Origin: Centipeda noxia ATCC 43541
GTDB taxonomy: Bacteria > Bacillota > Negativicutes > Selenomonadales > Selenomonadaceae
Assembly (NCBI RefSeq): GCF_000160555.1
Contig: NZ_GG749281.1
Coordinates: 304,433-355,668, forward strand
Length of the DNA stretch: 51,236 nt
Direction: 5' to 3'
Numbering within the stretch: the stretch's first letter is position 1; each line of letters begins with the position of its first letter. Both the position numbers and the translations under genes were made by a program. Positions 32,661 to 47,203 of this stretch are shown here, piece after piece. Under the pieces are notes generated by a model. It searched no databases. It saw only the letters and a list, made by a program, of their open reading frames with translations, and had not been told where the DNA came from.

Positions 32661-33263
32661 ATGATTTCCGTGGAGATGACAGTATTTCATGGAACGTGTT
32701 CCGTTCATAGAGCATCCATCGAGCAATATGGTCTTGATCCGAGCAAAACAAAACGGCGTAAGGATCACTGGCTGGGACAGGGACTTTATTTTTTCGATAG
32801 TGCTGATCTTGCAATATGGTGGGCAGATACATTAGTTGGAAAGAAATATCCTGGATACTCTTCCCTTATATACCGAGCAAAGATTTTTACTCCAGACAGT
32901 AGGGTATTAAATTTCGATGATAACAAACAAGTCGATGCTTTTTATAAGGAAGTTATACAATATGTGCGTGAACGCAAGAATCAAACTGATGGGCGGCAAC
33001 CTGTCTTCTCGTTAGAAGGGATTGGACGTGCTGCCTTTCTGGACTATTATAAAAAGACACATGATATAGCTGTGGTCATTGCCACTTTTGAAAAAGATTG
33101 TGCGAGATATACTGCTCCCCGAAGTCGAGAGGAGCTTGAAATTCAAAGAGATCTTATGCGTATTTTGAAAATAAAATATCATGAAAGGCAAATATGTGTA
33201 TCAGATCAAGCGGTCATTCGGGATACACGAGTACATTATGATGCAGAGGAGGAAGTGCTGTGA
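32661..33263 (+). CDS. Predicted ADP-ribosyltransferase-like toxin of a toxin-antitoxin-chaperone system
   Basis: A protein of up to 200 aa. Near its start it carries VFHGTCS, and about 35 residues later HWLGQGLYFFDSADLAIWWAD. This H-G-T plus G-x-G-L-Y-F pattern is that of DUF3990 and PARP-like ADP-ribosyltransferase folds, where the His binds NAD. ATG 32661, GTG 32670 and ATG 32676 are all possible starts; GTG 32670 has the best-placed AAGGAT. The gene is markedly AT-rich compared with its neighbours, a sign of transfer. It overlaps the next gene by 4 bases and is followed by a SecB-like gene. In the E. coli CmdTAC system the toxin is an mRNA ADP-ribosyltransferase, so an RNA target is plausible but unproven. 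Confidence 0.6.
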   Translation: MISVEMTVFHGTCSVHRASIEQYGLDPSKTKRRKDHWLGQGLYFFDSADLAIWWADTLVGKKYPGYSSLIYRAKIFTPDSRVLNFDDNKQVDAFYKEVIQYVRERKNQTDGRQPVFSLEGIGRAAFLDYYKKTHDIAVVIATFEKDCARYTAPRSREELEIQRDLMRILKIKYHERQICVSDQAVIRDTRVHYDAEEEVL

Positions 33264-33483: not shown

Positions 33484-33885
33484 ATGAAGATGAATATCAT
33501 GACTGAATACCATAGCCCGCTCATATTGGAGATGCTGGAAATCGTAGAAGGGGTATTCAAAAAAAAAGACAGTGATGCTGACGAAATTGATCTTATAATT
33601 CGCCCTCAATACAGCATTGAACAACAGGGCGACGACCTTTACAGCGTTACCCTGTCTCTGACACTTTCGGCTACAAATGAAGAAATCTACATTCATGTCA
33701 AGGGTAAAGCCTTGTTTCATACGACATCCGAGCATCAGGCACTGATCCAAAAAAACACGCTTGCGATCATGTTCCCCTATCTGCGCAGCTATATCACTTC
33801 TCTGACAGCGCAGCCAGGGGTTACTCCTATTGTTTTGCCTCCCATGAATATTGTTGCGATGCTTGAGGAGCTGGAAAAATCGTAA
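33484..33885 (+). CDS. SecB-like chaperone of the toxin-antitoxin-chaperone system
   Basis: A 133-aa protein with the SecB pattern: beta strands DDLYSVTLSLTLSA and EEIYIHVKGKALF, then the terminal hallmark IMFPYLRSYITSL-PGVTPIVLPPMNIV. In SecB the corresponding segment is the YLRE-helix followed by the LPPxNF motif. It is AT-rich like the two genes before it and starts 11 bases after the antitoxin stop with AGGAG. SecB-like proteins in toxin-antitoxin-chaperone modules (as in the mycobacterial HigBA-Rv1957 system) protect an unstable antitoxin. Housekeeping SecB is the alternative, but the operon context argues against it. Confidence 0.75.
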   Translation: MKMNIMTEYHSPLILEMLEIVEGVFKKKDSDADEIDLIIRPQYSIEQQGDDLYSVTLSLTLSATNEEIYIHVKGKALFHTTSEHQALIQKNTLAIMFPYLRSYITSLTAQPGVTPIVLPPMNIVAMLEELEKS

Positions 33886-33920: not shown

Positions 33921-33962
33921 AAAAGCGGTACAATTGGTTGAAAATCCAATCGTATCGCTTTT
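33921..33962. terminator. Bidirectional terminator between the toxin island and the phosphonate cluster
   Basis: 17-bp inverted repeat with two G-U pairs (33921-33937 and 33946-33962) and an 8-base loop. T runs occur on both sides: at least four T on the plus strand and six on the minus. It serves the two convergent operons. Confidence 0.85.
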
Positions 33963-33971
33963 CTTATGCAG

Positions 33972-35087
33972 TCATCCGCGCAGCGTGCGCATCAGTGCCT
34001 CTTTGTTCTCTGCAGGCGTCGTGGTCGGGCGGCCGAGATCGGCGCGGGAGCCGACGGCGGTGCGGATCTCGAGGAAGGTGAGGGCATCGGCTCTCTGCAG
34101 CTCTGCGAGGGCGCGTGCGACCTCCTCCTCCGTCTCCGCCGCCTTGACGATATGATAGCCGAGACTCACGGCAACGGCGGGAAAGAGCACCGCCGCCGCT
34201 GCGGTCGGCGCGCCGCCGACACTCTCGTGTGCTTCGTTGTTGAGGAGGATGTGCATGAGATTCGACGGCGCGGCCGCACCGATGGTTGCCATTGTGCCCA
34301 TATGCATCAGCGCAGCGCCGTCGCCGTCGAGCACAAGCACACGCTGCTCCGGACGATGGAGCGCAATGCCGAGCGCAATCGCGCCCGCATGCCCCATCGA
34401 GCCGACGGTGAGAAAGTCATGTGCGTGATCCTCGCCGCGCCGCTCGCGCAGCTCAAAGAGCTCGCGCCCCGTCTTGCCCGTGGTGGCGACGATGACGGCG
34501 TCTCCTGCCGCATCGAGGATGCGCGCGATCACATCTTCACGGCGCAGGGCATATGCATTCCCGTATTTCCGCTTCGGGTATTCCAATGCCCCTTCGCGGA
34601 CAAGGAAGGCGCACTGCCCGCCCGCTGCGAGATGAGAGCGCTGCTCCTTTATCCAGGCAGCGGCATCTGCCGGTGCCGTCGCGCGCGTGAGCACCATCGT
34701 CTTTATGCCCATCGTCTCGAGCAGCGGCAGACTTAGCCGTCCCTGCACGAGATGCTGCGGCTCATCATGGAGATCCGGCTCGCCGCGCCAGCCGATAACG
34801 AAGACGCAAGGGATGCCGTAGACCTCCTCATGCAGGAGCGAGAGCAGAGGGTTCACGATGTTGCCGAGTCCGCTGTTCTGCAGATAGACGAGCGGCGTCT
34901 TGCCCGTCGCGAGATGATAGCCCGCCGCAAGCGCCGCGGCGCTGCCCTCGTTCGCGGCGATGATATGCGACGGCCCGCCGCTCCCGTAGGTATCCATGAG
35001 ATAATCCACGAGCGGGCGCAGCTTCGAGTCCGGCACGCCCGTGAAAAAGTCCGCGCCGAGCGCAGCGATGAGTTCGTTGACGTTCAT
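33972..35087 (-). CDS. aepY: Phosphonopyruvate decarboxylase
   Basis: A 371-aa thiamine-diphosphate enzyme that decarboxylates phosphonopyruvate to phosphonoacetaldehyde, the irreversible step that pulls phosphonate synthesis forward. Features include FFTGVPDSKLRPL near the start, the NEGSAAALAAGYHLATGK segment with the cofactor-activating Glu, and the TPP-Mg motif GDGAALMHMG followed by NN near residue 270. Sulfopyruvate decarboxylase is the close alternative, but the PEP mutase in the same cluster makes phosphonopyruvate the expected substrate. ATG 35087 follows AGGAGGATCGA. It is the last gene of the minus-strand cluster. Confidence 0.9.
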   Translation of the reverse strand: MNVNELIAALGADFFTGVPDSKLRPLVDYLMDTYGSGGPSHIIAANEGSAAALAAGYHLATGKTPLVYLQNSGLGNIVNPLLSLLHEEVYGIPCVFVIGWRGEPDLHDEPQHLVQGRLSLPLLETMGIKTMVLTRATAPADAAAWIKEQRSHLAAGGQCAFLVREGALEYPKRKYGNAYALRREDVIARILDAAGDAVIVATTGKTGRELFELRERRGEDHAHDFLTVGSMGHAGAIALGIALHRPEQRVLVLDGDGAALMHMGTMATIGAAAPSNLMHILLNNEAHESVGGAPTAAAAVLFPAVAVSLGYHIVKAAETEEEVARALAELQRADALTFLEIRTAVGSRADLGRPTTTPAENKEALMRTLRG

Positions 35088-35096
35088 TCGATCCTC

Positions 35097-37247
35097 CTAT
35101 GATTTTTCCCCAAACCACTCCGGGCGCGCCGCACGCATCGCCGGCCAAAACTCGCCGTTGTTTGCCGTCTCCCGCACAAACGCGCGGGCACGCGGGTAAA
35201 AGAACGCGCGCAGCTCCGCGCTGTCGATTTCATAGCCTTCCTCGAGCTCGTGGGCGCGCGGGTAGATCGCTGCACGGGCGTCGGCGAAGTCTGCCGTTCC
35301 GTCCTCGTCGAGCACCGCGCGCGTCTCGAGGCGCATCGTATACTCGTGCGTGCGCACAGCGAGCTTATACGTCTGCCCCGGGAACATCGACACGCTGCAG
35401 ACGGCGTCACGCTCCGTTCCGCCGAAGACGGCGGGAAGATTTCCGTCGATATCGGATGCTGCGGGGAATCCTGCGAGAGCGCCAAGCGTTGGATAGATAT
35501 CCGCAATGCTCGTCAGCTCGGGAATGACCATGCCCTCCGGTATGCCTGCACCGCGCATCATCCACGCCGCGCGCGTTGAGTTTTCTCCAATGACATCAAC
35601 GACGCCTCCGGTCGGCGTCGTGAATACCGAATTGCCGTGATCGGAATAGAGGCTTACAATATATTCATCGGGGCGGAAGCGCTCCTCAATATAGGTGAGG
35701 AGATGCCCGATGCTGCGGTCGGCATGGGCGAGGCTCTGCCAGAACTGCTCCTGATAGATGCGGAGCTTCGGCAGGCGAACGCTCGCGATATGTGCATCGA
35801 TGTCAAAGAGGCGCTGACGGAGCGGCAGATGTGTTTCCACCGCCGGGTGAAATTTGAAGCCCTTTGCGTTCCACGGGTGAACATCCGTCGTATGCAGGTA
35901 GAGGAACTGATCCGTTTCGTCAAACGCCTCGATCTGCATGATGGCGCGGTCTGCCATCTCTGCGGACGACAGTTTCCACGCGCTCACATTCAGGAGATCG
36001 TACCCGCGCAGCGCCCCGCAGCAGACACTGTCGCTTGCCCCCATCGGCGCGGCGGCATAGTAGCCGAGATCCGTCATGCACTCGGAAAGCGTTTTGAAAT
36101 CGAGCGGGATCTCGTGACTGTCGCGTTCGTTGAAGACCTGCGTATGCTGCGGATAGCGCCCCGTCTCGATGACGGGGAGCGCCGGATAGGTGCATTCGGA
36201 CGTGGAGAAGTGCTGGTCGAAGATCACGCCGCGCGCAAAGAAGCGCGCGATGTTCGGCATACAGTCGGGGAACCGCGTGCGGGCGATGTTCCATGAGAGC
36301 CCGTCCACGAGGATATTCAGCACCAGTCTGCACCGCGCAGAGCTGTGTCCGAGGCGGATGGGCGTGCCGACGGCATAGGGGGCGCTGGAGGCGGAATGCA
36401 GGCGTGTCGTCTCTGCGAGGCGGAAATGGCTGAATGCCCACTTGCCGAGATAGGCTGCCTGAGGCGGCATCGTATCTGTCTCGATGCGCAGCTCCTGTAA
36501 GTCCTCCGTTCCTGCGACGGGGAGAATGATCTCAGCGCCTGCAGGGACAGGGATCTCCACACTGCCGCGCACCTCCTCTGCGCGCTGCAGCTGGAACGGG
36601 AAATCGCGCTGCATCTTGTCGACGAAGACCCCCGTGTGCCGCACCTGTTCGATGAGGGCGCTCCGATCCGAGAGGAAGGCGTTCTCCACATAGACCCCGA
36701 CCCAGTGACGCGCGCTTCCCCGCGGCGGCGTGAGCGGCAGATGTTCCCCGACAAAGGCGTCGAGGACAAAGTCCAGCGAATCACCGTCCCATACGGCGCG
36801 GCGCTGCGTCATGGGCGCACCCGTGCCGTGCCATGCGGCGACGGAGAGGCGGCTCAGGCCCTCTCTGCCGCCGCGGCGGGCGAGGGGAAGCGGGATGGGC
36901 GTCTCATAGAGTCCGTAGGAATTGCCGCACATCGTGAGCGCATCGACCGGACGATCAAGGCGCTCGTAAATCTCCGCGAGCAGCTTCCACACCTCATAAT
37001 TTACCGGGCGGCGGCGGTATGCACGCTCCGCGCAAACGGCCGCCCCCGCGGCATCGCCCTGCGCAAGCAAATAGCGCGCGGCAAAGATATCCGCACGCTC
37101 GGAATCGGGCGACTCCTCCCGATAGGCGGCGAGCTGCATGAGAAAGTCGTCATCGTAGGCGCCGCGCTCCGCGCACGCAAGAAGAGCGCAGAAGAGCTCA
37201 CGGGCGCGCGCATTGTTCTGCCAGAATGTGCTGAAATCGTCCTTCAT
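35097..37247 (-). CDS. TPR-like/alkaline-phosphatase-superfamily fusion protein, paralogue 1
   Basis: A 716-aa protein of two parts. The N-terminus (about 1-110) has helical pairs with the spacing of TPR-like repeats (ADIFAARYLLAQGDAAGAAV, EVWKLLAEIYERLDRPVDAL). The C-terminal half (about 305-680) is a sulfatase/nucleotide-pyrophosphatase-type domain: metal Asp315 in NILVDGLSWN, probable nucleophile Thr353 in ECTYPALPVIETGRYPQHT, HTTDVHPW and the metal pair in LYSDHGNSV. There is no signal peptide or membrane segment, so it should be cytoplasmic. Thr in TxP resembles NPP-type phosphodiesterases or phosphonate-acting members more than sulfatases. It overlaps paralogue 2 by ATGA. The role is unknown; transfer or release of a CMP-activated phosphonate is my inference. 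Confidence 0.65.
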   Translation of the reverse strand: MKDDFSTFWQNNARARELFCALLACAERGAYDDDFLMQLAAYREESPDSERADIFAARYLLAQGDAAGAAVCAERAYRRRPVNYEVWKLLAEIYERLDRPVDALTMCGNSYGLYETPIPLPLARRGGREGLSRLSVAAWHGTGAPMTQRRAVWDGDSLDFVLDAFVGEHLPLTPPRGSARHWVGVYVENAFLSDRSALIEQVRHTGVFVDKMQRDFPFQLQRAEEVRGSVEIPVPAGAEIILPVAGTEDLQELRIETDTMPPQAAYLGKWAFSHFRLAETTRLHSASSAPYAVGTPIRLGHSSARCRLVLNILVDGLSWNIARTRFPDCMPNIARFFARGVIFDQHFSTSECTYPALPVIETGRYPQHTQVFNERDSHEIPLDFKTLSECMTDLGYYAAAPMGASDSVCCGALRGYDLLNVSAWKLSSAEMADRAIMQIEAFDETDQFLYLHTTDVHPWNAKGFKFHPAVETHLPLRQRLFDIDAHIASVRLPKLRIYQEQFWQSLAHADRSIGHLLTYIEERFRPDEYIVSLYSDHGNSVFTTPTGGVVDVIGENSTRAAWMMRGAGIPEGMVIPELTSIADIYPTLGALAGFPAASDIDGNLPAVFGGTERDAVCSVSMFPGQTYKLAVRTHEYTMRLETRAVLDEDGTADFADARAAIYPRAHELEEGYEIDSAELRAFFYPRARAFVRETANNGEFWPAMRAARPEWFGEKS

Positions 37248-39355
37248 CCTGTTATCTCCTCCGGCAGGGGGAATCTCTCTCCGTTGTTCCCGATGCCCTC
37301 CAGGAATGCCCGCACGGGCGGGTAGAAGAAGCGGCGCAGCTCCGCGCTGTCCGCCTCATAGCCCTCCTCGTGCTCGTGCGCGCGCGGATAGATGCCCGTC
37401 TTGGTCCGCGCGAGATCGGCGGTGCCGCTGAGCGAGACGGGATCCAGCGTATCGAGGCAGAACGTATAGTCCTTGGCGCGCGCCGCGAGATGATAGTGCT
37501 TGTGCGGAAAGAGTGAATTGCTGTATGCGATCGCGCGTCCTGTTCCGCCAAAGAGTTTCGGAAGCACGCCGTCCACATTTTCGGCGACGGGAAAGCCGAG
37601 GAGACGGGCGAGCGCGGGGTAGATATCGACGGCACTGGTCAATTCATCGGCGATCAGCCCGTCGGGCACGCCGGCGCCGCGCATCATCCACGCGGCTCCC
37701 GTCAGCTGCGTATCCACAATGTAGTGCGTCGGGCTGAAGATCGGCACGCCGTGATCCGAGCAGAGATTCACGAGATAGTCCTCAGGTGCATAGTGCTGCT
37801 CAAGATAGGAAAACAGGGCGCCGAGTGCGCGGTCCGTATCGCGCACTGCCTGTCGGAACGCCTTCTGATAGAAGCCACTCGGCCGCAGGTAGGGGCTGGT
37901 CACCTTCTCCTTGGAGCCCGAGAGACGTCCCGCCAGCGGCAGCTGCATCTGCGCGGCCGAGGAGATCTGGAAGATCTCGCCGCCCCACGGGTGCACATCG
38001 CCGAAATGCAGGAAGATGAAGTGATCCGCCTCCTGGCAGCCGTCCAGACAGCGGATCGTCCGCTCGACGCCTTCGTAGGCGTGGAGGCGGTAGGGCGAGA
38101 CCAGCAGGCGGTCATAGCCGCGCGTCACACCGTTGTAAATCCCAATGCCGTCGCCCATGAGGCTCGCCGTCGCATAGCCCGCCGCACGCGCCCGCTCGGA
38201 AATCGTGATAATCTCCTCACACAGCTCGATCGCGGCCCACTCGCTGAATATGCCCGTGTGCTGCGGGTACATTCCCGTCTCGATCGTCGGGAGCGAGGGA
38301 TAGGTGTACTCGAGCACGGAGAAATGCTGGTCGAATATTGCGCCGCGCCCAAAGAATCGCGCGGTGTTCGGCATATGCTCGGCGAACGATGTGCGCAGCA
38401 CCTGCCACGGGAGAGCGTCCACGAGGATATTCAGCACCAGTTTTCTGCGCGCGGAACTGTGCCCGAGGCGAATCGGCGTACCTACGACAAAATCCTCTGC
38501 AGAGGAAAGCTGCGTCGTCTCATCCAGACGGAAATAATTCGGCGTTGCGGGATTCAGCCAGATACAGTCGTCCACCGTCTCCGTCTTCGCCGTGAGCACC
38601 TGCCCGTCTGCCGTGCCGAAGACCGGCACGATCGCCGCCGCACCCTCCTCGACGGCGATGACAACATCGTTTGCCGGCGGCTGCGCGCGCATGATGTCGA
38701 ATGTGAAATCCCCGCCGACATTGTCTGCCAGCCCCGGCGCATTTCGGATCGTCTCCATCAGCCAGCGCTTGTTCCCGTGCACCTCCTGCTCCGTGTAGGC
38801 CCCGACATAGTAGTGCGGCGTGATGTGCGCCGAGACCGGCAGGAACTCCTCGAAGAATACGGTCGACGATGCCGTCAGGCCCTCCTCCGGCGTGTAGCGC
38901 ATGCGGCTGAGCGCGTACGGCGCGTAGTTTGCCTTGCCCGTTGCGCGCGAGAGGCGGGCGAGCGTCTCCTCCGTCAGCGCCGCGGGCGGTACGTTCAGGG
39001 AGATCGGCACCTTGAAGAAATTCAGCGGATAGCCCTGCATGACAAGCGCATCTGCATAGCGTCCGAGCGCCGCATAGGCACGCGAGAGCACCTGCCACAC
39101 CGCCGGCTCCACCGGACGGCGGCGAAATGCACGCTCCCCGCAGAGCGCAGCGCCCTCCGCATCGCCGTTGGCGAGGAGATACTGCGCGGCAAAGATGTCT
39201 GCGCGCTCGGAGTCCGGCGACGCCTCCCGATAGGCCGCAAGCTGCGCCAGGAAATCATCGTCATAGGCATCGTCCTCCGACCGCCCGAGGAGGTCCTGGA
39301 ACAGCGCGTAAGCGCGCGCGTCGTTCTGCCAGAATGTGCTGAAATCGTCCGTCAT
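37244..39355 (-). CDS. TPR-like/alkaline-phosphatase-superfamily fusion protein, paralogue 2
   Basis: A 703-aa protein with the same architecture as its neighbours: MTDDFSTFWQND opening, helical repeats to about 115, and a phosphatase-superfamily domain with NILVDALPWQV, EYTYPSLPTIETGMYPQHT, FGDVHPWG and CSDHGVPI. It is the most divergent of the three. ATG 39355 follows AAAGGAGG and gives the family N-terminus; the upstream TTG frame has no counterpart in the other paralogues. One metal-loop residue differs (LHFGDVHPW against LHTTDVHPW), so substrate range may differ. It is directly coupled to paralogue 1. Confidence 0.65.
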   Translation of the reverse strand: MTDDFSTFWQNDARAYALFQDLLGRSEDDAYDDDFLAQLAAYREASPDSERADIFAAQYLLANGDAEGAALCGERAFRRRPVEPAVWQVLSRAYAALGRYADALVMQGYPLNFFKVPISLNVPPAALTEETLARLSRATGKANYAPYALSRMRYTPEEGLTASSTVFFEEFLPVSAHITPHYYVGAYTEQEVHGNKRWLMETIRNAPGLADNVGGDFTFDIMRAQPPANDVVIAVEEGAAAIVPVFGTADGQVLTAKTETVDDCIWLNPATPNYFRLDETTQLSSAEDFVVGTPIRLGHSSARRKLVLNILVDALPWQVLRTSFAEHMPNTARFFGRGAIFDQHFSVLEYTYPSLPTIETGMYPQHTGIFSEWAAIELCEEIITISERARAAGYATASLMGDGIGIYNGVTRGYDRLLVSPYRLHAYEGVERTIRCLDGCQEADHFIFLHFGDVHPWGGEIFQISSAAQMQLPLAGRLSGSKEKVTSPYLRPSGFYQKAFRQAVRDTDRALGALFSYLEQHYAPEDYLVNLCSDHGVPIFSPTHYIVDTQLTGAAWMMRGAGVPDGLIADELTSAVDIYPALARLLGFPVAENVDGVLPKLFGGTGRAIAYSNSLFPHKHYHLAARAKDYTFCLDTLDPVSLSGTADLARTKTGIYPRAHEHEEGYEADSAELRRFFYPPVRAFLEGIGNNGERFPLPEEITG

Positions 39356-39415
39356 GGAGACCTCCTTTCCGATGTGGTTCCGCTCTGCCTTCTGCCGCAA
39401 AAGCAGGAGCGGGGA

Positions 39416-41533
39416 TCAATTCTGCGGCGAAAAATACTCTGCATTGTTTGCAAAACCGCGGACAAAATCGCGCGCCCGCGGCCAGAAGAAGGCGCGCAGC
39501 TCCGCGCTGTCCAGTGCGTGATCATGCTCCAGCTCGTGGCCGCGCGGATAGATGCCGACCGCTGCATCCGCAAAGTCCGCCGTACCGTCGCCCAGAACCG
39601 GCCCGCGCGTCTCGAGGCGCAGCGCGTACTCGTGCGTGCGCATGGCGAGCTTGTACGTCTGCCCCGGATACATGGAGAAGGAGCACACCGTGTCGCGCCC
39701 CCGGCCGCCGAACACCGCCGGCAGACGGCCGTCGATGTCGGGGGAGACGGGGAAGCTGCAGAGATGCCCAAGCGTCGGATAGAGGTCGGCAATGCTTGTC
39801 AGCTCCTGTGCCCGCACGCCCTCCGGCACGCCCGCGCCGCGCATCATCCACGCTGCGCACGTCGAGTTCTCGCCGATGACATCGAGCTCCGCCCCCTCCG
39901 CACGCGGCGTGAAGACCGAGCTCCCGTGATCGGAGTAAAGACTTACAATATATTCATCGTCGGCGTAGTGATTTTCGATATAGGAGAGAAGCCCGCCGAT
40001 ATTGCGGTCGACCTCGCGCAGACCCGCATGGAACTGTGCCTTGTAGATCTCGAAATCGGGCAGACGGACGCTCGCCGTCGCCTTCTCCCAGGCAAAGAGC
40101 CGCTGGCTGAGCGGCAGACGCGTCTCGACCGCGGGCGCAAAGCAAAAGCCCATCGCATCCCACGGATGCACGTCGGAGAGGTGGAGGAACGCGAAGAGAT
40201 CGGCCTCTCCGAATGCCTCGATATGGCGGATCATGCGGTCGGCGCCGATCAGTGAGGGGAGCTGCCACGTTGCGGTGATGAGCCGGTCATAGCCGCGCAT
40301 GACGCCGTTGTATACGCCGTCCGGGGAGGTCATGGGCGCCGCCGTATAGTAGCCGAGGTCCTTCATGCACTCCGCGAGCGTCAGGATCTCGGGCGCGAGC
40401 TCATGGCTTGCCTCCGCATCGAAGAGCTGCGTGTGATGGGCGTACCGTCCCGTCTCGATCGCGGGCAGCGCAGGGTACGTGTACTCCGATGTGGAGAAAT
40501 GCTGGTCGAAGATCGTGCCGCGCGCAAAGAAGCGTGCGATGCTCGGCATCCATGCGGCAAAATGCTCGCGTACGACATTCCATGGGAGCGCATCCACGAG
40601 GATGTTCAGCACGAGTTTTTTCCGCGCGGGACTGTGGCCGAGGAGGATGGGCGTTCCAACGGCGAACGACGTGCCGTCCTCGCAGGTCAGCGTCGTCGTC
40701 TCCGCGAGGCGCAGATGGCTGTACGACCACTTGCCGAGGTAGGCGAGCTGGTCATCATGGGACGGCGTCTGTGCGATCAGCTCCTGCAGGGGCGCCGTGC
40801 CGCCGACCGGGAGGATCGCCGTGCGTCCCTCGGGCACGGCAATCTGGACCGTGCCGCTGACCGCGCGCGCCTTTTGCAGGTCAAAGGGGAAATCGCGGCA
40901 GACGTTGTCCTGAAACCAGTCCTTCGTCCGCGCGTCCGCAATCATATAGCCGCGGTCCGAGAGAAAGCCCCGATCGGCATAGGCGGCGACCCAGAAACGC
41001 TCGCTGCCCGCGGGAACCGTGACCGGCAGATATTCGCCGACAAAGACGTCGGGGCGCAGTGTGAGTGCATGGTTCTCGATTACGGCACGCTTCTTTGCGA
41101 GCGGCGCGTCGAGGCAGCCGTTCATCGCGCGCGTGAGCCGCGCAAGCACCGCGTCATTCAGCTCTGTTGGCCAGGCGGGCAGGGGCGCCTGGGCGAAGCG
41201 ATGCGCATAGGCCTCGAATACCGCAGCCTCCGCTGCATTCCCCAGCTGCCGGTATGCAGCGGCAAGAACGCTCCATGCCGCCGCGCTCTGGGGACGCTTC
41301 TCATGTGCGCGCATCCCGCAGACTGCGGCGCCTGCAGGATCGTTCTGCGCAAGCAAATAGCGCGCGGCAAAGATATCCGCGCGCTCGGAATCCGGGGCGG
41401 CTTCGCGGTAAGCGGCGAGCTGGACGAGGAAATCATCATCGTATGCTCCGTGCTCGGAGCGGTCGAGGAGATCGTAAAACAGCTTATATGCGTATTCGTC
41501 GTTGCGCCAGAATACGGTGAAATCGTCCTGCAT
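39416..41533 (-). CDS. TPR-like/alkaline-phosphatase-superfamily fusion protein, paralogue 3
   Basis: A 705-aa protein, first of the three to be transcribed. Same layout: MQDDFTVFWRND opening, helical repeats with ADIFAARYLLAQNDPAGAAV, and the phosphatase-superfamily domain with NILVDALPWNV, EYTYPALPAIETGRYAHHT, LHLSDVHPWD and LYSDHGSSV. Short DNA stretches are identical to paralogue 1 (for example 41347-41380 and 37061-37094, 34 bp), a sign of recent duplication or gene conversion. GGCAGGAGAGGG precedes ATG 41533. It follows the AEP transaminase gene by about 30 bp. Confidence 0.65.
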   Translation of the reverse strand: MQDDFTVFWRNDEYAYKLFYDLLDRSEHGAYDDDFLVQLAAYREAAPDSERADIFAARYLLAQNDPAGAAVCGMRAHEKRPQSAAAWSVLAAAYRQLGNAAEAAVFEAYAHRFAQAPLPAWPTELNDAVLARLTRAMNGCLDAPLAKKRAVIENHALTLRPDVFVGEYLPVTVPAGSERFWVAAYADRGFLSDRGYMIADARTKDWFQDNVCRDFPFDLQKARAVSGTVQIAVPEGRTAILPVGGTAPLQELIAQTPSHDDQLAYLGKWSYSHLRLAETTTLTCEDGTSFAVGTPILLGHSPARKKLVLNILVDALPWNVVREHFAAWMPSIARFFARGTIFDQHFSTSEYTYPALPAIETGRYAHHTQLFDAEASHELAPEILTLAECMKDLGYYTAAPMTSPDGVYNGVMRGYDRLITATWQLPSLIGADRMIRHIEAFGEADLFAFLHLSDVHPWDAMGFCFAPAVETRLPLSQRLFAWEKATASVRLPDFEIYKAQFHAGLREVDRNIGGLLSYIENHYADDEYIVSLYSDHGSSVFTPRAEGAELDVIGENSTCAAWMMRGAGVPEGVRAQELTSIADLYPTLGHLCSFPVSPDIDGRLPAVFGGRGRDTVCSFSMYPGQTYKLAMRTHEYALRLETRGPVLGDGTADFADAAVGIYPRGHELEHDHALDSAELRAFFWPRARDFVRGFANNAEYFSPQN

Positions 41534-41562
41534 TTATCCCTCTCCTGCCGTTCTCCTGTTGG

Positions 41563-42660
41563 TTATCGAGCCTTTAGTGCCTCTTCGAATACGCGGAAGA
41601 AGCCGTGGATATCCGCCGCATCGATCGCGCCGAGGGCGCAGAGGCGGAACGTTGATGCCGTCTGCATCTTGCCCGGGTAGATGGTATAGCCGCGTTCATA
41701 GCAGTAGTCGTGCACGCGGAGAAAGTCGAAGTCCGCCGACGGGTACTTCACAGCGACGACGAGCCCCGACTGGATTTCACGCGGGATGGCTTCGCTGAGA
41801 CCGAGCTGCGCAAGCCCCTCATGGATGGCGTTTGCGACGCGCGTGTGGCGCGCCCATTTCTTCTCCTCTCCCTCGACGAAGTACTCCATCAGTGCGCGCT
41901 TTGCCGCGTAGACGGTCTGTACGGGCGGAGTGAAGCGCATCTCGCCCGTCTCCTCAAACCCCTCGTACTGCATGATGAGGTTCGTATAGTACGAGCGTAC
42001 GGGATAGGCTTTTGCCGCCGTGAGAACCGCTTTTTTTGCGAGGACGAACGAGAGGCCTGTCATGCCTTGGATCCCCTTTTGCGCCGAGGACATGCAGACG
42101 TCGATGTTCATCTCGTCCGCGGAGAACGGGATCATCGCATAGGTGGAGATCGTGTCCGCGATCATGACCGCGCCGTGCGCATGGGCGAGGGCGCCGATCT
42201 CGCGCACGGGGTTCAGGATGCCCGTGCCCGTCTCCTGATGCGTCGTGTAGACGGCAGCGATGTCGGGATGCTCGTTGAGCGTGCGCTCAACGGCGGCGAG
42301 GTCGGGCAGCTCGTCAATGGGGAAGGTCAGATCGATATGCGGCACGGCATAGGCGCGCGCCATCGCCGCAGCACGTGCGGAGTAGGCGCCGTTGTTGACG
42401 ATGAGGAGTTTTTTGTCCGCAGGCACGAGCGAGCTCACGCAGGCGTCCATGCAGATCGTGCCGGACCCGCAGAAAAGTACGGTCGTCCAGTCTGCTGCAT
42501 CGGCGTGGACGACCCTGAGGAGATCCGTGCCGAGCTGACGCATGAGATCGCCGAACGCGCGCTCGCGCGGACAGATATCGGGGACGAGCTGCGCCGCCTT
42601 GACCATGTCTGTGGTCGTTGCGGGGCCGGGGTTGAGCAGAATGTTTCGCTTGATATTCAT
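41563..42660 (-). CDS. phnW: 2-aminoethylphosphonate-pyruvate transaminase-like aminotransferase
   Basis: A 365-aa class V aminotransferase. It begins KRNILLNPGPATTTDMVK, the PhnW-type opening, and has the PLP lysine Lys195 in SSAQKGIQGMTG. FCGSGTICMDA lies near residue 64. PhnW interconverts AEP plus pyruvate with phosphonoacetaldehyde plus alanine; beside PEP mutase and the decarboxylase it should act in the AEP-forming direction. The start overlaps the preceding methyltransferase by 4 bases (ATGA). Other class V enzymes with similar motifs exist, but the context is decisive. Confidence 0.85.
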   Translation of the reverse strand: MNIKRNILLNPGPATTTDMVKAAQLVPDICPRERAFGDLMRQLGTDLLRVVHADAADWTTVLFCGSGTICMDACVSSLVPADKKLLIVNNGAYSARAAAMARAYAVPHIDLTFPIDELPDLAAVERTLNEHPDIAAVYTTHQETGTGILNPVREIGALAHAHGAVMIADTISTYAMIPFSADEMNIDVCMSSAQKGIQGMTGLSFVLAKKAVLTAAKAYPVRSYYTNLIMQYEGFEETGEMRFTPPVQTVYAAKRALMEYFVEGEEKKWARHTRVANAIHEGLAQLGLSEAIPREIQSGLVVAVKYPSADFDFLRVHDYCYERGYTIYPGKMQTASTFRLCALGAIDAADIHGFFRVFEEALKAR

Positions 42661-43370
42661 GATGACTTCCGATACATAAAGCAGTTGAAGATGAACGGCG
42701 TGTTCCAGTATCCCTTGAGCTCCATGGAAGGAAATGCGATGCGCAGTCCATGTGCCGATGCATAGTCGGTAAAGAGGCTGTGTGTGTAGAAGTGCCGCTG
42801 CAGACCCTTATACAGCTCGTCGTAGTTGGGAATATTTGCCCGACGGAAGGCAAGGTAGTCTTCGCGTTTTTCAATATCATGCAGCCCCATGATGCCGATG
42901 GGGCCGCGGCTCTTTTCCCGCATGAGGTTGAGGACATGGACGGCGTAGTCGTCATTGGGGAAGTAGGGGAATACGCCGCTGGCAAAGATGGCGTCGTATT
43001 TCTGATCGACGCTGATGGCGTCCGCCTCGCCGGCGTATAGCTCTACCGGGGATGAGATCACCGTGCGTGCGGTCTCGATAAGTCCCTCGGCGTAGTCCGT
43101 TCCGCCGACGGTCATCCCATCACGCTGCATCAGATAGAGGTTTGCACCTGTCCCGCAGCCGACTTCAAAAACGCTGGAATCATTGGTGAGGCGGAGCAGT
43201 TCTTTTGTCTGTGCGTATTCGTTGAGGAAGGCATCCAGTGAGATGCCTTCTCCCATCACATCGTAACCGTTGAGGCGCTTGAGCTCGAGGAAAATGTCCT
43301 CCCAGTTCCCCGACAGCTTTCCTGTGCCGGGCTTTCTGCGATTCCAAATGGCTCTCCATTTATTGTCCAC
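42657..43370 (-). CDS. Class I SAM-dependent methyltransferase, paralogue B
   Basis: A 237-aa methyltransferase. The glycine-rich SAM motif is VFEVGCGTGANLYLM (about residue 67), with the acidic residue TDYAEGL about 20 residues later and AIFASGVFPYFP as the post-II region. It begins MDNKWRAIWNRRKPG, like its neighbour, and shares the C-terminal GYWNTPFIF. Lengths and motifs show it is a tandem duplicate of the gene upstream. The GTG start is inferred from this shared N-terminus. Its substrate is unknown; methylation of the phosphonate amine or of the modified polymer would fit the cluster. Confidence 0.75.
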   Translation of the reverse strand: MDNKWRAIWNRRKPGTGKLSGNWEDIFLELKRLNGYDVMGEGISLDAFLNEYAQTKELLRLTNDSSVFEVGCGTGANLYLMQRDGMTVGGTDYAEGLIETARTVISSPVELYAGEADAISVDQKYDAIFASGVFPYFPNDDYAVHVLNLMREKSRGPIGIMGLHDIEKREDYLAFRRANIPNYDELYKGLQRHFYTHSLFTDYASAHGLRIAFPSMELKGYWNTPFIFNCFMYRKSS

Positions 43371-43376
43371 GGTGAC

Positions 43377-44084
43377 CTACTTTCGATACAGGAATACGTG
43401 AAAGACGAACGGGGTGTTCCAATAGCCTTCCATCTCGATGGCGGGGAACTCGATGCGAAGATCGTGCGCGCGGGCGAAGTCCTCAAAGAAGCTGCGGCGG
43501 TAGAAGAGCTTGCCGAGGCCCTTGTAGCGTTCGTCGTAGTCCGGGATGGCGGCGCGGCGGTAGGCGAGGAATTCTTCTTCTTTATCTGCGTCGTGGATGT
43601 CGATGAGGCCGATCGCGCCCGCAGTTTTTTTGAGCATGCGCGTGAGAACGCGCGCGGCAAAAGCCTCATCGGGAAAATATGAAAAGACGCTGTTGGAGAG
43701 TGCAGCGTCATATTTTATGGTTGTGTCGAAGGCATCCGCCTCGCCGCAGGTGAGCTCGCGCGCCGCAGGAAGCACGCTGCGTGCGATCTCGACGAGCGGA
43801 CGGGCGTAGTCTGTGCCGCCGACGGCGATGCCGCTGCGCGCGAGGAGATAGAGGTTTGCCCCCGCGCCGCAGCCGACGTCGTAGACGCTCATGCCCTCCG
43901 TCAGATGCAGCAGCTCTCTGATCCGCCGTCCCTGCATCAGGAGCGAGTCCAGCGGGATGCCGCCGTCCACAACGTCAAATCCGTTGAGCCGTTTCAGCTC
44001 GAGAAAGATGTTCTGCCAGCTCCCCGTGAGGGTGTCTGTCTCCGCCTGCCGCCGGTTCCAGACCGCCTTCCATTCATTTGTCAC
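43377..44084 (-). CDS. Class I SAM-dependent methyltransferase, paralogue A
   Basis: A 235-aa methyltransferase with SAM-binding motif VYDVGCGAGANLYLL (about residue 67) and GTDYARPL following. Start MTNEWKAVWNRRQAETD and end EGYWNTPFVFHVFLYRK match paralogue B. The GTG start overlaps the PEP mutase stop by one base (TAGTG), so it is translated with that gene. The duplicated pair suggests either two successive methylations or two substrates, which the sequence cannot distinguish. Confidence 0.75.
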   Translation of the reverse strand: MTNEWKAVWNRRQAETDTLTGSWQNIFLELKRLNGFDVVDGGIPLDSLLMQGRRIRELLHLTEGMSVYDVGCGAGANLYLLARSGIAVGGTDYARPLVEIARSVLPAARELTCGEADAFDTTIKYDAALSNSVFSYFPDEAFAARVLTRMLKKTAGAIGLIDIHDADKEEEFLAYRRAAIPDYDERYKGLGKLFYRRSFFEDFARAHDLRIEFPAIEMEGYWNTPFVFHVFLYRK

Positions 44085-45379
44085 TATACCACCTCGATGA
44101 GCCGGATGATGTCCTTGATCGGCAGGAGCTCGGCGTCGATCTCGTGCGCGCGGTGATGGACGAGGATGGAGCGCGCCGCGTTCTCCATCGCGGGGAAGGC
44201 GCTGCGCGTGAGCTGGTTTGCGTAGATGACGATGCGCACGCCGTGCGCTGCAAGCTCCGCCTCCGTGATGGTGTTGTAGGAGGAGGGGACGGCGACGATG
44301 GGCACGTCGGGGTGGCTCGTGTGGAAGGCGTCGCAGAACGCGATGACCTCATCGGGCGATTTGGCGCGCGAGTGAATCATGATGCCGTCTGCGCCTGCAG
44401 CAACATAGGCCTCTGCACGCGCGAGCGCATCCTCGATGCCCTTTTCCAGAATCAGGCTCTCGATGCGCGCAATGATCATGAACTCCTCGGTGCGCTGCGC
44501 CGCTTTGCCTGCGGCGATCTTCTCGGAGAAGTTTTCGATCGTGTCCTGCGTCTGTGCGACCTCCGTGCCGAAGAGGGAGTTGCGCTTTGCGCCCGTCTTG
44601 TCCTCGACGATGACGGCAGAGACGCCGATGCGCTCGAGGGTGCGGACGTTGTAGGCGAAATGCTCCGCTGTGCCGCCCGTGTCCATGTCGAGGATGATGG
44701 GCTTCGTCGTGACGTCCATGACCTCGTTGATGGTCTGGATGCGGTCAGAGAGGTCGATCAGCTCGATGTCCGGTTTGCCGCGCGAGGTCGAGTCACAGAG
44801 GCTCGAGATCCACATGGCGTCGAACTGGTCGAGCCCGCCGTCGTTCTCAACGACGGTTTTCTCTGCGATCAGTCCTGTGAGGCCGTTGTGGACCTCGATT
44901 GTCTTTACAATGGGGACGATCTCGAGCAGGCGGCGCAGGCGCCCGCGGCGCGCCTCGGGCATCGCGAGCTGCTCGCGCATGCGCCAGTCGATGTTGCGGA
45001 CTTCCTTGCTTTCGGTATACGGCGGCTCGACGAGCTCGCCGCCATAGCGTGCGAGGCAGGCGAGCACGTTTTTGCGGATCGAGGACTCGGGCCCCTGCGC
45101 CCAGTTGCTCCCGTGCACCACGTAGTCGGGGCGCAGCTGATCGAGAATCTCGTCGTACATGATGTGCTCCTGTACGACGACCTCTGCGACCTCGGGCAGC
45201 ACGCGGATCATCTCCATGCGCTCGGCGAGCGCCTTGGTCGGAAAGCGGTTGTAGCGCACCATCTCCGGATCGGAGAGCACGCCGACGGTCACCGCGCCCA
45301 GTTCTGCCGCAGCGCGAAGGAGGTTCCGGTGTCCCTCGTGGATGATGTCGGTGCAGAAGCAGGTGTAAACACGTTTCAT
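44084..45379 (-). CDS. pepM: Phosphoenolpyruvate mutase with N-terminal cytidylyltransferase-like domain
   Basis: A 431-aa two-domain protein. Residues 1-140 form a cytidylyltransferase-like domain with the HxGH motif (HEGH, 14-17) in CFCTDIIHEGHRNLL. Residues 165-431 are the PEP mutase, with DQFDAMWISS, LDMDTGG and the signature EDKTGAKRNS (259-268), which separates true mutases from isocitrate-lyase-like relatives. It makes phosphonopyruvate from PEP by forming the C-P bond, the entry into nearly all phosphonate pathways. I prefer the ATG at 45379 to that at 45388 because GAGGGAGA is too close to the first. The role of the N-terminal domain is not established. Confidence 0.92.
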   Translation of the reverse strand: MKRVYTCFCTDIIHEGHRNLLRAAAELGAVTVGVLSDPEMVRYNRFPTKALAERMEMIRVLPEVAEVVVQEHIMYDEILDQLRPDYVVHGSNWAQGPESSIRKNVLACLARYGGELVEPPYTESKEVRNIDWRMREQLAMPEARRGRLRRLLEIVPIVKTIEVHNGLTGLIAEKTVVENDGGLDQFDAMWISSLCDSTSRGKPDIELIDLSDRIQTINEVMDVTTKPIILDMDTGGTAEHFAYNVRTLERIGVSAVIVEDKTGAKRNSLFGTEVAQTQDTIENFSEKIAAGKAAQRTEEFMIIARIESLILEKGIEDALARAEAYVAAGADGIMIHSRAKSPDEVIAFCDAFHTSHPDVPIVAVPSSYNTITEAELAAHGVRIVIYANQLTRSAFPAMENAARSILVHHRAHEIDAELLPIKDIIRLIEVV

Positions 45380-45395
45380 AACTTTCATTCTCCCT

Positions 45396-46130
45396 CTATC
45401 CCATTGGCTTTTTGCTGCCCTTTACGCGCTCCTCGAGTGCCCTGAGCTCCTCCACGGTGTCGATCTCCCACACATCCTCCCGCGCGCATTCCCTGATATA
45501 TACGTCGCATTCGTGCGGATAGTATTTCAGCATGATCTCATCCCAGTAGAGCTGGCGGTAACGCTCCTCCTTGTAAAGTTCGTTCGCGCACGCTGCGAGC
45601 CGCCGTCCGTCCTCTGGCGTCCAGTACGACAGCCCGAGCATCTGATGGCACGGGTGATCGCTCGCCGTATCGATGTGTGTGATCTTCCCGGCCGAGTCCG
45701 TGTCGAAACACCAGTCGTCTGTCTTTGCAACGGGAAACGCAATGTAGTTTGAGCGCTCCTGCATGGATGTGATGACGGCGGGATGCGCGAGATAGAGATC
45801 GCCCTCGATCACGTAGCTGTCTTCGAGAAGCCCCGCCCGCCCTGCGCGCGCAACGGATGAAATATTGTTTGCCGTCGCCCAGTCGGGATTGTCCATGTAG
45901 GAGAGATGCGGGTACTCTGCGCGGAGCATGTCGAACGCTGCGCCAGCGTAGCCCCGCACAATAGTAATCGACGAAATCCCCGCATCATTAAGCGCATCTA
46001 AAATTGTCGCGATGATCGGACGCCCGTTCACGGGGACGAGAGGCTTCGGCATATGATCCGTCAGCGGTGCGAGGCGTGTCCCGCGTCCTGCCGCGAGGAT
46101 GACGGCGCGCGTCACGCGATGCGCACTCAT
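45396..46130 (-). CDS. LicC/PntC-like nucleotidyltransferase (probable phosphonate-activating)
   Basis: A 244-aa sugar-nucleotidyltransferase-fold protein. The N-terminal signature AVILAAGRGTRLAPLTDHMPKPL binds the NTP, and IEGDLYLA and the C-terminal WDEIMLKYY, then WEIDTVEEL, resemble LicC choline-phosphate cytidylyltransferases. A close relative, PntC, makes CMP-AEP from CTP and AEP. In this cluster the same reaction would activate AEP (or its methylated form) for transfer. The start overlaps the trpS stop by one base (TGATG), tying the cluster's expression to trpS. It could instead activate another small molecule. Confidence 0.8.
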   Translation of the reverse strand: MSAHRVTRAVILAAGRGTRLAPLTDHMPKPLVPVNGRPIIATILDALNDAGISSITIVRGYAGAAFDMLRAEYPHLSYMDNPDWATANNISSVARAGRAGLLEDSYVIEGDLYLAHPAVITSMQERSNYIAFPVAKTDDWCFDTDSAGKITHIDTASDHPCHQMLGLSYWTPEDGRRLAACANELYKEERYRQLYWDEIMLKYYPHECDVYIRECAREDVWEIDTVEELRALEERVKGSKKPMG

Positions 46131-47140
46131 CAGACGAGGCCCATTTTGCGCATCGTTTTGCGGAGCGTCTTCTCTGCGATCTGTGAGGCGCGTTCCGTGC
46201 CGTCCATGATGGCGGCGTCGAGATACGCCGCATCCTTGAGGAGCCGGGCGTAGTTCTCGCGGATCTCGCGCAGCTCCTCGGCGACGACCGTGCCGACCGC
46301 TGTCTTGAAGTCGCCGTAGCCTTTGCCGCTGAATTCGTCCGCGATCGCCTCCATGGATTTCCCCGTCACGGCGGAGTAGATCGTCATCAGATTGTTGATG
46401 CCGTCTTTTCCTTCGCGGAACGCAACCAGGGCCTCGCTGTCCGTGACGGCGGATTTGAATTTCTTCAGGATGGTCTTTTCATCGTCGAGGATGAAGATCG
46501 TCGCCTTGGCGTTCTCGTCCGACTTGCTCATCTTTGCCGTCGGTTCCGCGAGGCTCATGACGCGTGCACCTGTCTTCGGGAAATACCCCTCGGGCAGGCG
46601 GAACGTCTCGCCGTAGATGTGGTTGAACCGCGCGGCGATGTTCCGCGTGAACTCGAGATGCTGCGTCTGATCCGCGCCGACGGGCACGTAGTCCGCCTGA
46701 TAGAGCAGGATGTCGCCTGCCATCAGCGCAGGATATGTGAAGAGCCCCGCATTGATGTCCTCGGGGTGCTTCGCCGACTTGTCCTTGAACTGCGTCATGC
46801 GCGAGAGATCGCCGAACGGACTGAGGCAGGAGAGCATCCACGCCATCTGCGCGTGGGCGGGCACGTGACTCTGGATGAAGACGAGGCTCTTCGTGGGATC
46901 GAGCCCGCACGCAAGCAGCAGAGCGAACGCCTCGCGGCTCGCTTTCCTGCGCGCGGCGGGATCGTGGTAGACCGTGAGCGCGTGGAGGTCGGCGACAAAA
47001 TAATAGCAGTCATACTCCTCCTGCAGCTGCCGCCAATTCTTCACCGCCCCGAGATAATTGCCCAGGGTGAATGTGCCGGTGGGCTGGATGCCGCTCAGGA
47101 TGATCCTGCGGCGGGAGGCGGCTGCATTTGTGTCGTTCAT
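46130..47140 (-). CDS. trpS: Tryptophanyl-tRNA synthetase
   Basis: A 336-aa class I synthetase that charges tRNA-Trp. The HIGH-equivalent is in SGIQPTGTFTLGNYLGA (about 14-30), with KMSKS in TAKMSKSDENAKA (near 205). PVGADQTQHLEFTR is also present. ATG 47140 gives the family N-terminus (MNDTNAAASRRRIILSG) after AAGAGGGGATC; the frame further upstream is leader. It is the first gene of the minus-strand unit that continues into the phosphonate cluster, with its own promoter. Confidence 0.96.
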   Translation of the reverse strand: MNDTNAAASRRRIILSGIQPTGTFTLGNYLGAVKNWRQLQEEYDCYYFVADLHALTVYHDPAARRKASREAFALLLACGLDPTKSLVFIQSHVPAHAQMAWMLSCLSPFGDLSRMTQFKDKSAKHPEDINAGLFTYPALMAGDILLYQADYVPVGADQTQHLEFTRNIAARFNHIYGETFRLPEGYFPKTGARVMSLAEPTAKMSKSDENAKATIFILDDEKTILKKFKSAVTDSEALVAFREGKDGINNLMTIYSAVTGKSMEAIADEFSGKGYGDFKTAVGTVVAEELREIRENYARLLKDAAYLDAAIMDGTERASQIAEKTLRKTMRKMGLV

Positions 47141-47174
47141 AAAGTGATCCCCTCTTAACATGATATAATGTTTC

Positions 47175-47203
47175 ATTATATACCATCGGACGATGATACG
47201 CAA
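47175..47203 (-). promoter_or_regulatory. Promoter for trpS and the phosphonate cluster
   Basis: On the minus strand, TTGCGT (47203-47198), a 17-bp spacer and TATAAT (47180-47175). A near-perfect palindrome AACATGATATAATGTT (47158-47173) lies immediately downstream. Confidence 0.7.

Follow-up and report, generated by a model that had tools for sequence, protein, structure and literature searches.

The question raised by this locus is which enzyme hands an activated phosphonate on to its acceptor. The locus lies in a stretch of 51,236 nucleotides from Centipeda noxia ATCC 43541 (the window; NZ_GG749281.1, positions 304,433 to 355,668), where a unit on the minus strand combines the predicted synthesis of 2-aminoethylphosphonate (AEP) from phosphoenolpyruvate (PEP) and its activation to CMP-AEP (CMP, cytidine monophosphate) with methyltransferases and with proteins that join a tetratricopeptide repeat (TPR) part to an alkaline-phosphatase-superfamily domain (TPR-APs, named SulfA, SulfB and SulfC in the window). 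The genome of the window is 2.05 Mb in size and 99.98% complete, with the operon on its contig 16. From gene content and modelled structure we infer that the TPR-APs are the best candidates for the missing transfer step, as cytosolic transferases using CMP- or CDP-activated (cytidine diphosphate) donors, and we put at about 0.6 the probability that the unit is a cytosolic phosphonate-tagging operon in which TPR-AP works as a CMP-AEP:acceptor phosphonotransferase. Read from 47203 to 33972, the unit has the order trpS, pntC-like, AepX, MT1, MT2, AepZ, SulfA, SulfB, SulfC and AepY:

46130..47203, minus strand: trpS, tryptophan--tRNA ligase, the upstream neighbour (TIGR00233, 350 bits against a cut-off of 176.75)
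45396..46130, minus strand: PntC/LicC-like cytidylyltransferase (PF12804; match to 1jyk; LAAGxGxR motif)
44084..45388, minus strand: AepX, a fusion of a cytidylyltransferase domain and PEP mutase (PF01467, PF13714, TIGR02320, 5x3d, 5unc and motifs)
43377..44084, minus strand: MT1, class I S-adenosylmethionine methyltransferase (Pfam)
42657..43370, minus strand: MT2, paralogue of MT1 (54% identity)
41563..42660, minus strand: AepZ, AEP transaminase (TIGR03301, 427.8 bits against a cut-off of 360.8)
39416..41533, minus strand: SulfA, TPR-AP paralogue (PF00884/PF01663; motif EYTYPALPAIETG)
37244..39400, minus strand: SulfB, TPR-AP paralogue (PF00884/PF01663; motif EYTYPSLPTIETG), with the ATG at 39355 as its more likely start
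35097..37247, minus strand: SulfC, TPR-AP paralogue (PF00884/PF01663; AlphaFold model and fold matches)
33972..35087, minus strand: AepY/Ppd, phosphonopyruvate decarboxylase (TIGR03297, 439.8 bits against a cut-off of 312.5)
33929..33954, minus strand: terminator-like hairpin with a T tail after the last gene (from a pattern scan alone, which gave 21 such sites in the region against 9.3 expected)

The sequence-only reading of this DNA had named the genes from 33972 to 46130 and had traced a route from PEP through AEP to CMP-AEP by known chemistry, and both points were borne out by family scans with curated cut-offs, in which all the named genes were recovered in place, as well as by an intact PEP-mutase motif and by the match of the PntC/LicC-like protein to 1jyk. 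The PEP mutase part of AepX scores 393.3 bits against the TIGR02320 cut-off of 319.55 and carries the EDKxxxxxNS motif as EDKTGAKRNS at residue 262. Going by family assignment and known chemistry, AepX would convert PEP to phosphonopyruvate, AepY would decarboxylate this to phosphonoacetaldehyde and AepZ would transaminate the aldehyde to AEP, which the PntC/LicC-like protein, the domain fused to AepX, or both, would turn into CMP-AEP. Residues 7–238 of the 244 in the PntC/LicC-like protein match the CTP:phosphocholine cytidylyltransferase 1jyk (E 2.9e-30), which we take to be LicC of S. pneumoniae; the substrate is a prediction, with CMP-AEP as the expected product. The N-terminal domain of AepX (PF01467, residues 14–100, with HEGH at residue 17) matches 5x3d, presumably the Fom1 cytidylyltransferase, at E 8e-26, and is a second cytidylyltransferase, absent from the sequence-only account, as are the N-terminal TPR-like domain of the phosphatase-superfamily proteins, the trpS overlap and the hairpin. 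The pair of methyltransferases and the three phosphatase-superfamily proteins of that account were also recovered in the minus-strand unit, SulfB and SulfC having 48 and 58% identity to SulfA. MT1 and MT2 retrieved only generic relatives from the PDB; their probable role is N-methylation, and the amine of AEP or of CMP-AEP is the inferred substrate of MT1, a relative of which (42% identical) adjoins TPR-AP in a genome without a PEP mutase match. As far as the genes tell, AEP synthesis with CMP activation is a known kind of pathway (PMC6697681).

The gene content of related genomes ties TPR-AP to PEP mutase. With E cut-offs of 1e-20 for TPR-AP and 1e-40 for AepX, the 151 family genomes examined include 41 with TPR-AP, 36 with AepX and 30 with both, giving a raw Fisher value of 8.7e-17 with relatedness ignored. 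Outside the genus, 17 genomes carried both and 10 and 6 carried one only (p 2.4e-10), and a count by genus gave 12 genera with both, one with TPR-AP only, two with AepX only and 15 with neither (30 genera; p 1.7e-5). A TPR-AP gene lies within 6 kb, measured between match starts, at 26 of the 37 AepX loci, a spacing that all 13 loci of the genus and 13 of the 24 others show; these distance counts and the genus counts leave aside the last, weakest TPR-AP fragment matches. In a phylum draw of 398 genomes, with at most two candidates scored per genome, TPR-AP (E up to 1e-20) was detected in four, one of them outside the family (G368). As for LicD, 18 of the 36 AepX genomes hold TPR-AP without it, 12 hold both, four hold LicD only and two, which are 86 and 88% complete, hold neither. 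The window's genome gave no match to LicD (PF04991) with E up to 1e-5, and of the 13 aepX-carrying genomes of the genus 12 gave none. Such a comparison of gene content had been proposed beforehand with the sequence-only reading, and its outcome agrees with that reading. The further statement that no known transferase is present held for the cluster, as neither a LicD nor a CDP-alcohol phosphatidyltransferase nor a TagF domain occurs in the ten proteins scanned. It also held for most of the genome, which gave no LicD match, with one TagF-type match, described below, as the exception.

The structure of the TPR-APs suggests how they might act. An AlphaFold model of SulfC, built from 32 sequences (pLDDT 90.7, pTM 0.92), has TPR helices at residues 13–138, a beta-rich part at about 146–294 and a phosphatase-superfamily domain at about 302–713. 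Residues 1–300 alone retrieved TPR proteins including O-GlcNAc transferase (OGT), mainly over residues 7–129 and with Z of about 10–11, a level at which helical repeats can match by arrangement alone; such a fusion of TPR and catalytic domain is characteristic of enzymes that modify proteins, for example OGT. The beta domain, compared within the larger model, gave no clear fold match, its weak rows being carbohydrate-binding modules and cupins. The residues D315, E351, T353, H457, D510, D536 and H537 (SulfC numbering) are invariant in 71 of 71 aligned sequences, and D455 is nearly invariant only, in A3. In sulfatases and phosphonate monoester hydrolases, the nucleophile motif is C-x-P-x-R. At the position of the formylglycine motif C/S-x-P-x-R, SulfA, SulfB and SulfC have T-Y-P-x-L, with Thr for Cys and Leu for Arg, the distance to the next T-G being what aligns T353 with the formylglycine Cys. 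T353 is a putative nucleophile, and D315, D536 and H537 are putative metal ligands on the pattern of the superfamily. No hydrophobic segment long enough for a membrane helix was found in the three proteins, whose maximum 19-residue hydropathy is 0.89 in SulfA, 1.67 in SulfB and 1.13 in SulfC, whereas the window's DUF5693 protein, taken as a contrast, reaches 2.72; a cytosolic location is thus expected.

Evidence on the donor comes from TPR-AP genes away from aepX, a subset of which was read at 20 loci (L016, L017, L066–L082 and L098); gene calls in the lower-GC relatives were made with a self-trained caller and some remain wrong, such as in L069. A CTP-type nucleotidyltransferase lies within about 10 kb at 11 of the 20 loci (L016, L066, L067, L068, L070, L071, L072, L077, L078, L082 and L098), for which the chance is 2.1e-7 under a generous assumed 12 such genes per 2.6 Mb and 5.6e-4 if the chance per locus is 0.2; with orthologous or same-genus loci collapsed, the count becomes 9 of 14 (4.4e-7). 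Choline-kinase-family and LicC-like PF12804 genes were observed at L066, L067, L070 and L071, the L070 kinase being short with a weak match, and an EamA-type, LicB-like transporter was present in addition at L066 and L070. At L098, the locus of G368 and thus of the sole TPR-AP found outside the family, the adjoining genes encode a choline kinase, a LicC-like protein and a BCCT transporter. L016, in the window's genome, carries glucose-1-phosphate cytidylyltransferase, CDP-glucose 4,6-dehydratase and RfbH, all over their cut-offs. L072 combines a cytidylyltransferase-like domain fused to a CobD-like domain with an MT1-family methyltransferase, a pair also found at L068, while at L078 a phosphoserine-phosphatase-like HAD protein, a nucleotidyltransferase and a methyltransferase lie beside TPR-AP. 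In the TPR-AP tree, AEP-, choline- and type-A-like-linked members interleave, with the choline-linked L071 sister to the AEP-linked L058 (support 1.0) and the AEP-linked L051 and L053 grouping with the type-A-like L068 and L072 (support 0.94), some deeper nodes being poorly supported. Since a CMP- or CDP-activated donor is common to these contexts, TPR-AP is read as the enzyme that would use the donor.

Two further features of such loci were recorded. At L016:6063-11481 (contig 17:518062-523480), the TPR-AP gene is directly upstream of the CDP-glucose genes and 18 kb from a flagellin gene, and no glycosyltransferase occurs among the five neighbours scanned alongside it. Three aepX clusters (L052:5666-6808, L058:12178-13302 and L059:4337-5425) encode an iron-type alcohol dehydrogenase, and no aepZ was seen in the part read, so that they may make hydroxyethylphosphonate, possibly as CMP-hydroxyethylphosphonate.

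Within the genus, whose Selenomonas and Centipeda members are mouth bacteria, the unit is conserved and its TPR-AP array varies. A scan of named genomes yielded eight loci, of which Selenomonas accounts for seven and Centipeda for one. The complete order of trpS, pntC, aepX, one or more methyltransferases, aepZ, array and aepY was found at L009, L011 and L015, and L012 keeps the same order as far as the array, at which point its contig runs out; L008, L010 and L014 show the array and aepY only, and L099, L100 and L101 have aepX, one methyltransferase, aepZ, the array and aepY together. By ORF (open reading frame) coordinates, trpS overlaps the first cluster gene, pntC-like, by one base, so the unit probably starts at trpS, which would share a transcript with the cluster; the trpS neighbour is also kept at named Selenomonas loci. 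The 13 genus genomes with aepX hold from at least three to seven TPR-AP copies within 20 kb of it, numbers that may be lower bounds with at most seven candidates scored per genome. Centipeda periodontii (L013:9764-12106) has a decayed locus made up of trpS, a 41-residue pntC remnant and one TPR-AP, and aepX to aepY were not found at this locus; at L099:9952-11355 one TPR-AP copy lies in three fragments in an otherwise intact array. Given the variable copy number, this remnant and these fragments, the array appears to gain and lose copies.

The copies themselves differ most in the beta domain and at residues 426–510. Over the first 80 residues, compared as two 40-residue blocks in five arrays and the window, identity within a genome is 70.2 and 64.4% against 62.4 and 58.1% between genomes over all pairs, and the remaining sequence shows no such excess. 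However, in these two blocks 12 reciprocal-best orthologue pairs reach 67.3 and 76.5% identity, of which the latter stands well above the within-genome value; any homogenisation of the gene starts (the first ~240 bases of each gene, window 35097-41533) would therefore be partial, and clear at most in residues 1–40. A shared docking part with diversified specificity would fit this pattern of variation. A group of longer TPR-APs (about 790–840 residues, one to three copies; L017:9257-11788, L079:7207-9585 and L080:7066-14299) occupies a fixed site in the genus between valS-type and formate-tetrahydrofolate ligase genes (scanned in L017), with no donor genes. Beyond the operon, the plus strand of the window carries at 32661-33263 a 200-codon ORF without a Pfam match, located between csaB and a SecB-like gene and having a 57% identical relative in the same place in L008, and the SecB-like protein at 33484-33885 (PF02556, 32.9 bits against 26) converges on the operon.

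Taken together as a mechanism, Thr353 of TPR-AP, at a metal site including at least D315, D536 and H537, would attack the phosphorus of CMP-AEP with CMP as the leaving group, and the AEP group would then pass to an acceptor hydroxyl delivered by the TPR part. The most likely acceptor would be a protein, flagellin above all, that is O-glycosylated in the cytoplasm, with the AEP group placed on its sugar; the tandem copies could serve separate acceptors or sites, and the family elsewhere appears to use other CMP or CDP donors, such as choline, CDP-glucose-type sugars and an amino-alcohol. The idea of a new kind of enzyme, put forward in the sequence-only reading, is plausible, and the evidence singles out the three TPR-APs as candidates for it, a link not drawn there; it is likewise plausible that the transfer module is a new enzyme family, and no published report of a TPR-AP family was found in the searched literature, which lacks most subscription journals. 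We would venture further, though at somewhat less than even odds, that the TPR-APs form a new class of cytosolic phospho- and phosphonotransferases, defined by a formylglycine-to-threonine switch and a TPR acceptor module, drawing on many CMP/CDP donors (AEP, N-methyl-AEP, choline, CDP-sugars, amino-alcohols and possibly hydroxyethylphosphonate) to modify glycosylated flagellin and other proteins, and that the Selenomonas array of up to at least seven copies writes on proteins a phosphonate code that is combinatorial and specific to each species.

Glycosylated flagellin is the leading candidate for the acceptor, because TPR-AP loci often lie in flagellin glycosylation islands elsewhere. Among the higher-scoring Flagellin_N matches listed, TPR-AP was within 20 kb of Flagellin_N in 13 of 29 genomes (29 of the 41 TPR-AP genomes entered the test), whereas 4000 random placements, with genomes assumed to be 2.6 Mb, gave 1.9 on average and never more than 8; many TPR-AP genes on short contigs could not score. 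In G019 a single strand carries csrA-fliD-fliS-fliC, then family 2 and family 41 glycosyltransferases, followed by TPR-AP, choline-type and aepX genes; G030 is laid out similarly, with fliC and family 41 confirmed and the remainder judged by eye, and in L071 the flagellin gene directly adjoins TPR-AP. Genomes of the genus also carry family 41 glycosyltransferases, several of which are next to flagellin in the window's genome.

Several observations weigh against a TPR-AP transferase acting on flagellin. The window's genome has its two Flagellin_N matches on contig 17 and the operon on contig 16, and this genome and G116 enter the flagellin count solely through the CDP-glucose-linked TPR-AP. Nine of the 20 loci away from aepX have no nearby nucleotidyltransferase (L017, L069, L073–L076 and L079–L081), among them the valS-linked TPR-AP of the window's genome; L017, L079 and L080 are one orthologous locus beside a valS-type gene, L073, L074 and L075 have only a dehydratase-type protein nearby, L076 is an aep remnant and L069 stops at a contig edge. 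The solved structure closest to the SulfC model is a hydrolase, choline sulfatase (Z 28.0, rmsd 3.2 Å over 356 residues), followed by phosphonate monoester hydrolase (Z 24.8) and nucleotide pyrophosphatases (near 24), hydrolases as well; the 50 structure matches listed include PbgA (6xlp) and none titled LtaS or EptA, an absence that carries no weight. LicD adjoins AepX in several other genera and could be the transferase there. The window's genome also has one TagF-type PF04464 match over its cut-off (contig 17, E 1.1e-7) as well as three more PF00884 proteins, whose open frames span 624–689 codons.

The alternative that survives best is a narrower form of the preferred explanation, namely a type-A-like flagellin modification in which AEP or N-methyl-AEP would stand in for N-methylthreonine phosphate on flagellin N-acetylglucosamine (GlcNAc), with TPR-AP in the role of CD0244. 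In C. difficile, flagellin is reported to bear AEP on the type A GlcNAc, and passages of the same report state that the organism lacks a PepM homologue (PMC8861647); the model proposed for type A has CDP-threonine as donor, a methyltransferase and a CMP-releasing transferase (PMC10714395), and L078, where TPR-AP stands with the HAD protein, the nucleotidyltransferase and the methyltransferase, presents the type A set without CD0244. The lack of linkage between operon and flagellin in the window's genome speaks against it, as does the L078 methyltransferase, which is only distantly similar to MT1 (28% over 99 residues), and we regard this version as quite possible, if short of probable.

An unlikely alternative is that TPR-APs are hydrolases that strip finished products of AEP or choline phosphate, or break down excess CMP-AEP, and that another, unrecognised enzyme performs the transfer. 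The top folds, being sulfatases, phosphonate monoester hydrolases and nucleotide pyrophosphatases, would suit such a role, as would the PF01663 matches of the nucleotide pyrophosphatase type. Yet the hydrolase motif is replaced by T-Y-P-x-L in SulfA to SulfC, half of the AepX genomes have TPR-AP without LicD, a single recycling step hardly accounts for as many as seven copies next to one aepX, and the union of TPR with a catalytic domain is of the kind known from OGT.

Less probable still is delivery of AEP to the outer membrane or capsule (lipopolysaccharide or another glycan) by a known class of enzyme encoded elsewhere, whether PF00884, TagF-type or PgsA-like, with the TPR-APs unrelated to the process. 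The three other PF00884 proteins and the TagF-type match of the window's genome could provide such an enzyme, and AEP in the capsule of B. fragilis is a published case (PMC6697681). However, TagF-type PF04464 is present in eight of 14 genus genomes and missing from six, all six with aepX; the CDP-alcohol phosphatidyltransferase family (CDP-OH_P_transf) has exactly one match in each of the 14, including one without aepX; LicD was not found in the window's genome; and no such enzyme lies in the cluster, whereas TPR-AP sits beside aepX in all 13 genus genomes that have it. Other ideas were rejected: a chance set of ORFs, ruled out by the gene order conserved in named Selenomonas genomes; ordinary sulfatases, given T-Y-P-x-L for C-x-P-x-R and T353 in every aligned sequence; a phosphonolipid as the main idea, given the single CDP-OH_P_transf match regardless of aepX; and a free small phosphonate, as the unit shows no recognisable gene for further tailoring or for export, and as cytidylyl activation that no small-molecule step follows would favour tailoring.

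If the TPR-APs are CMP-AEP:acceptor phosphonotransferases, they could supply the missing last step of CMP-AEP-type pathways. Passages of Rice et al. (2019) predict that most bacterial phosphonate clusters decorate cell surfaces and state the step after CMP-AEP as unknown (PMC6697681). The operon offers three soluble candidates for this step in a genus with cultured strains, and with LicD not found in 12 of its 13 aepX genomes the question is directly testable. A confirmed activity would provide bacteria of the human oral flora with a way to phosphonylate proteins and, if CDP-choline and other donors are also used, would mean one family linking phosphonate, phosphocholine and type-A-like flagellin modification.

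Comparison with known systems places the first half of the unit among the Pnt (phosphonyl tailoring) clusters, which, in the portions of the report that describe them, share the PEP mutase-cytidylyltransferase fusion, Ppd, the AEP transaminase, the LicC-like PntC and a CMP-AEP donor (PMC6697681). A PEP mutase with EDKxxxxxNS, Ppd with AEP transaminase, and both PF12804 and PF01467 are all found here; the words sulfatase and methyltransferase are absent from the main text of that paper (PMC6697681), whereas here TPR-AP genes stand in tandem and LicD was not found. The type A, or b-type, flagellin glycan of C. difficile and P. aeruginosa likewise has a proposed CDP-activated small amino compound, an N-methyltransferase and transfer to a flagellin sugar, according to parts of both reports (PMC10714395, PMC11833859). 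The transferase proposed there is the TagF-like CD0244, whereas the window's cluster has TPR-AP and no PF04464, and the type A cluster is next to fliC, a linkage seen in other genera and not in the window's genome. With the Lic-1 phosphocholine pathway the unit shares LicC-like activation, and TPR-APs in related genomes adjoin choline-kinase-like and LicC-like genes; the Lic-1 transferase LicD was not found in the window's genome, and the TPR-APs match PF00884 and not the LicD family.

Among transferases of the alkaline-phosphatase superfamily, PptA, EptA and LtaS have a Thr nucleophile and a membrane anchor, EptA and LtaS using lipid donors. Like the proposed TPR-AP reaction, theirs is the transfer of a phospho head group, in the case of PptA to protein, from a donor called unidentified in passages of that report (PMC10434233). 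TPR-AP differs from them in having no membrane segment and in sitting with nucleotide-donor genes, and has the invariant T353. Choline sulfatase and phosphonate monoester hydrolase are the closest folds and share the alkaline-phosphatase-superfamily fold (PF00884 over cut-off), whereas TPR-AP has Thr and Leu for Cys and Arg as well as the extra TPR and beta domains. The NPP nucleotide pyrophosphatases, finally, have a two-metal site with D-x3-H and a late His, and in TPR-AP D455 is only nearly invariant (in A3) and H457 invariant in all 71 sequences.

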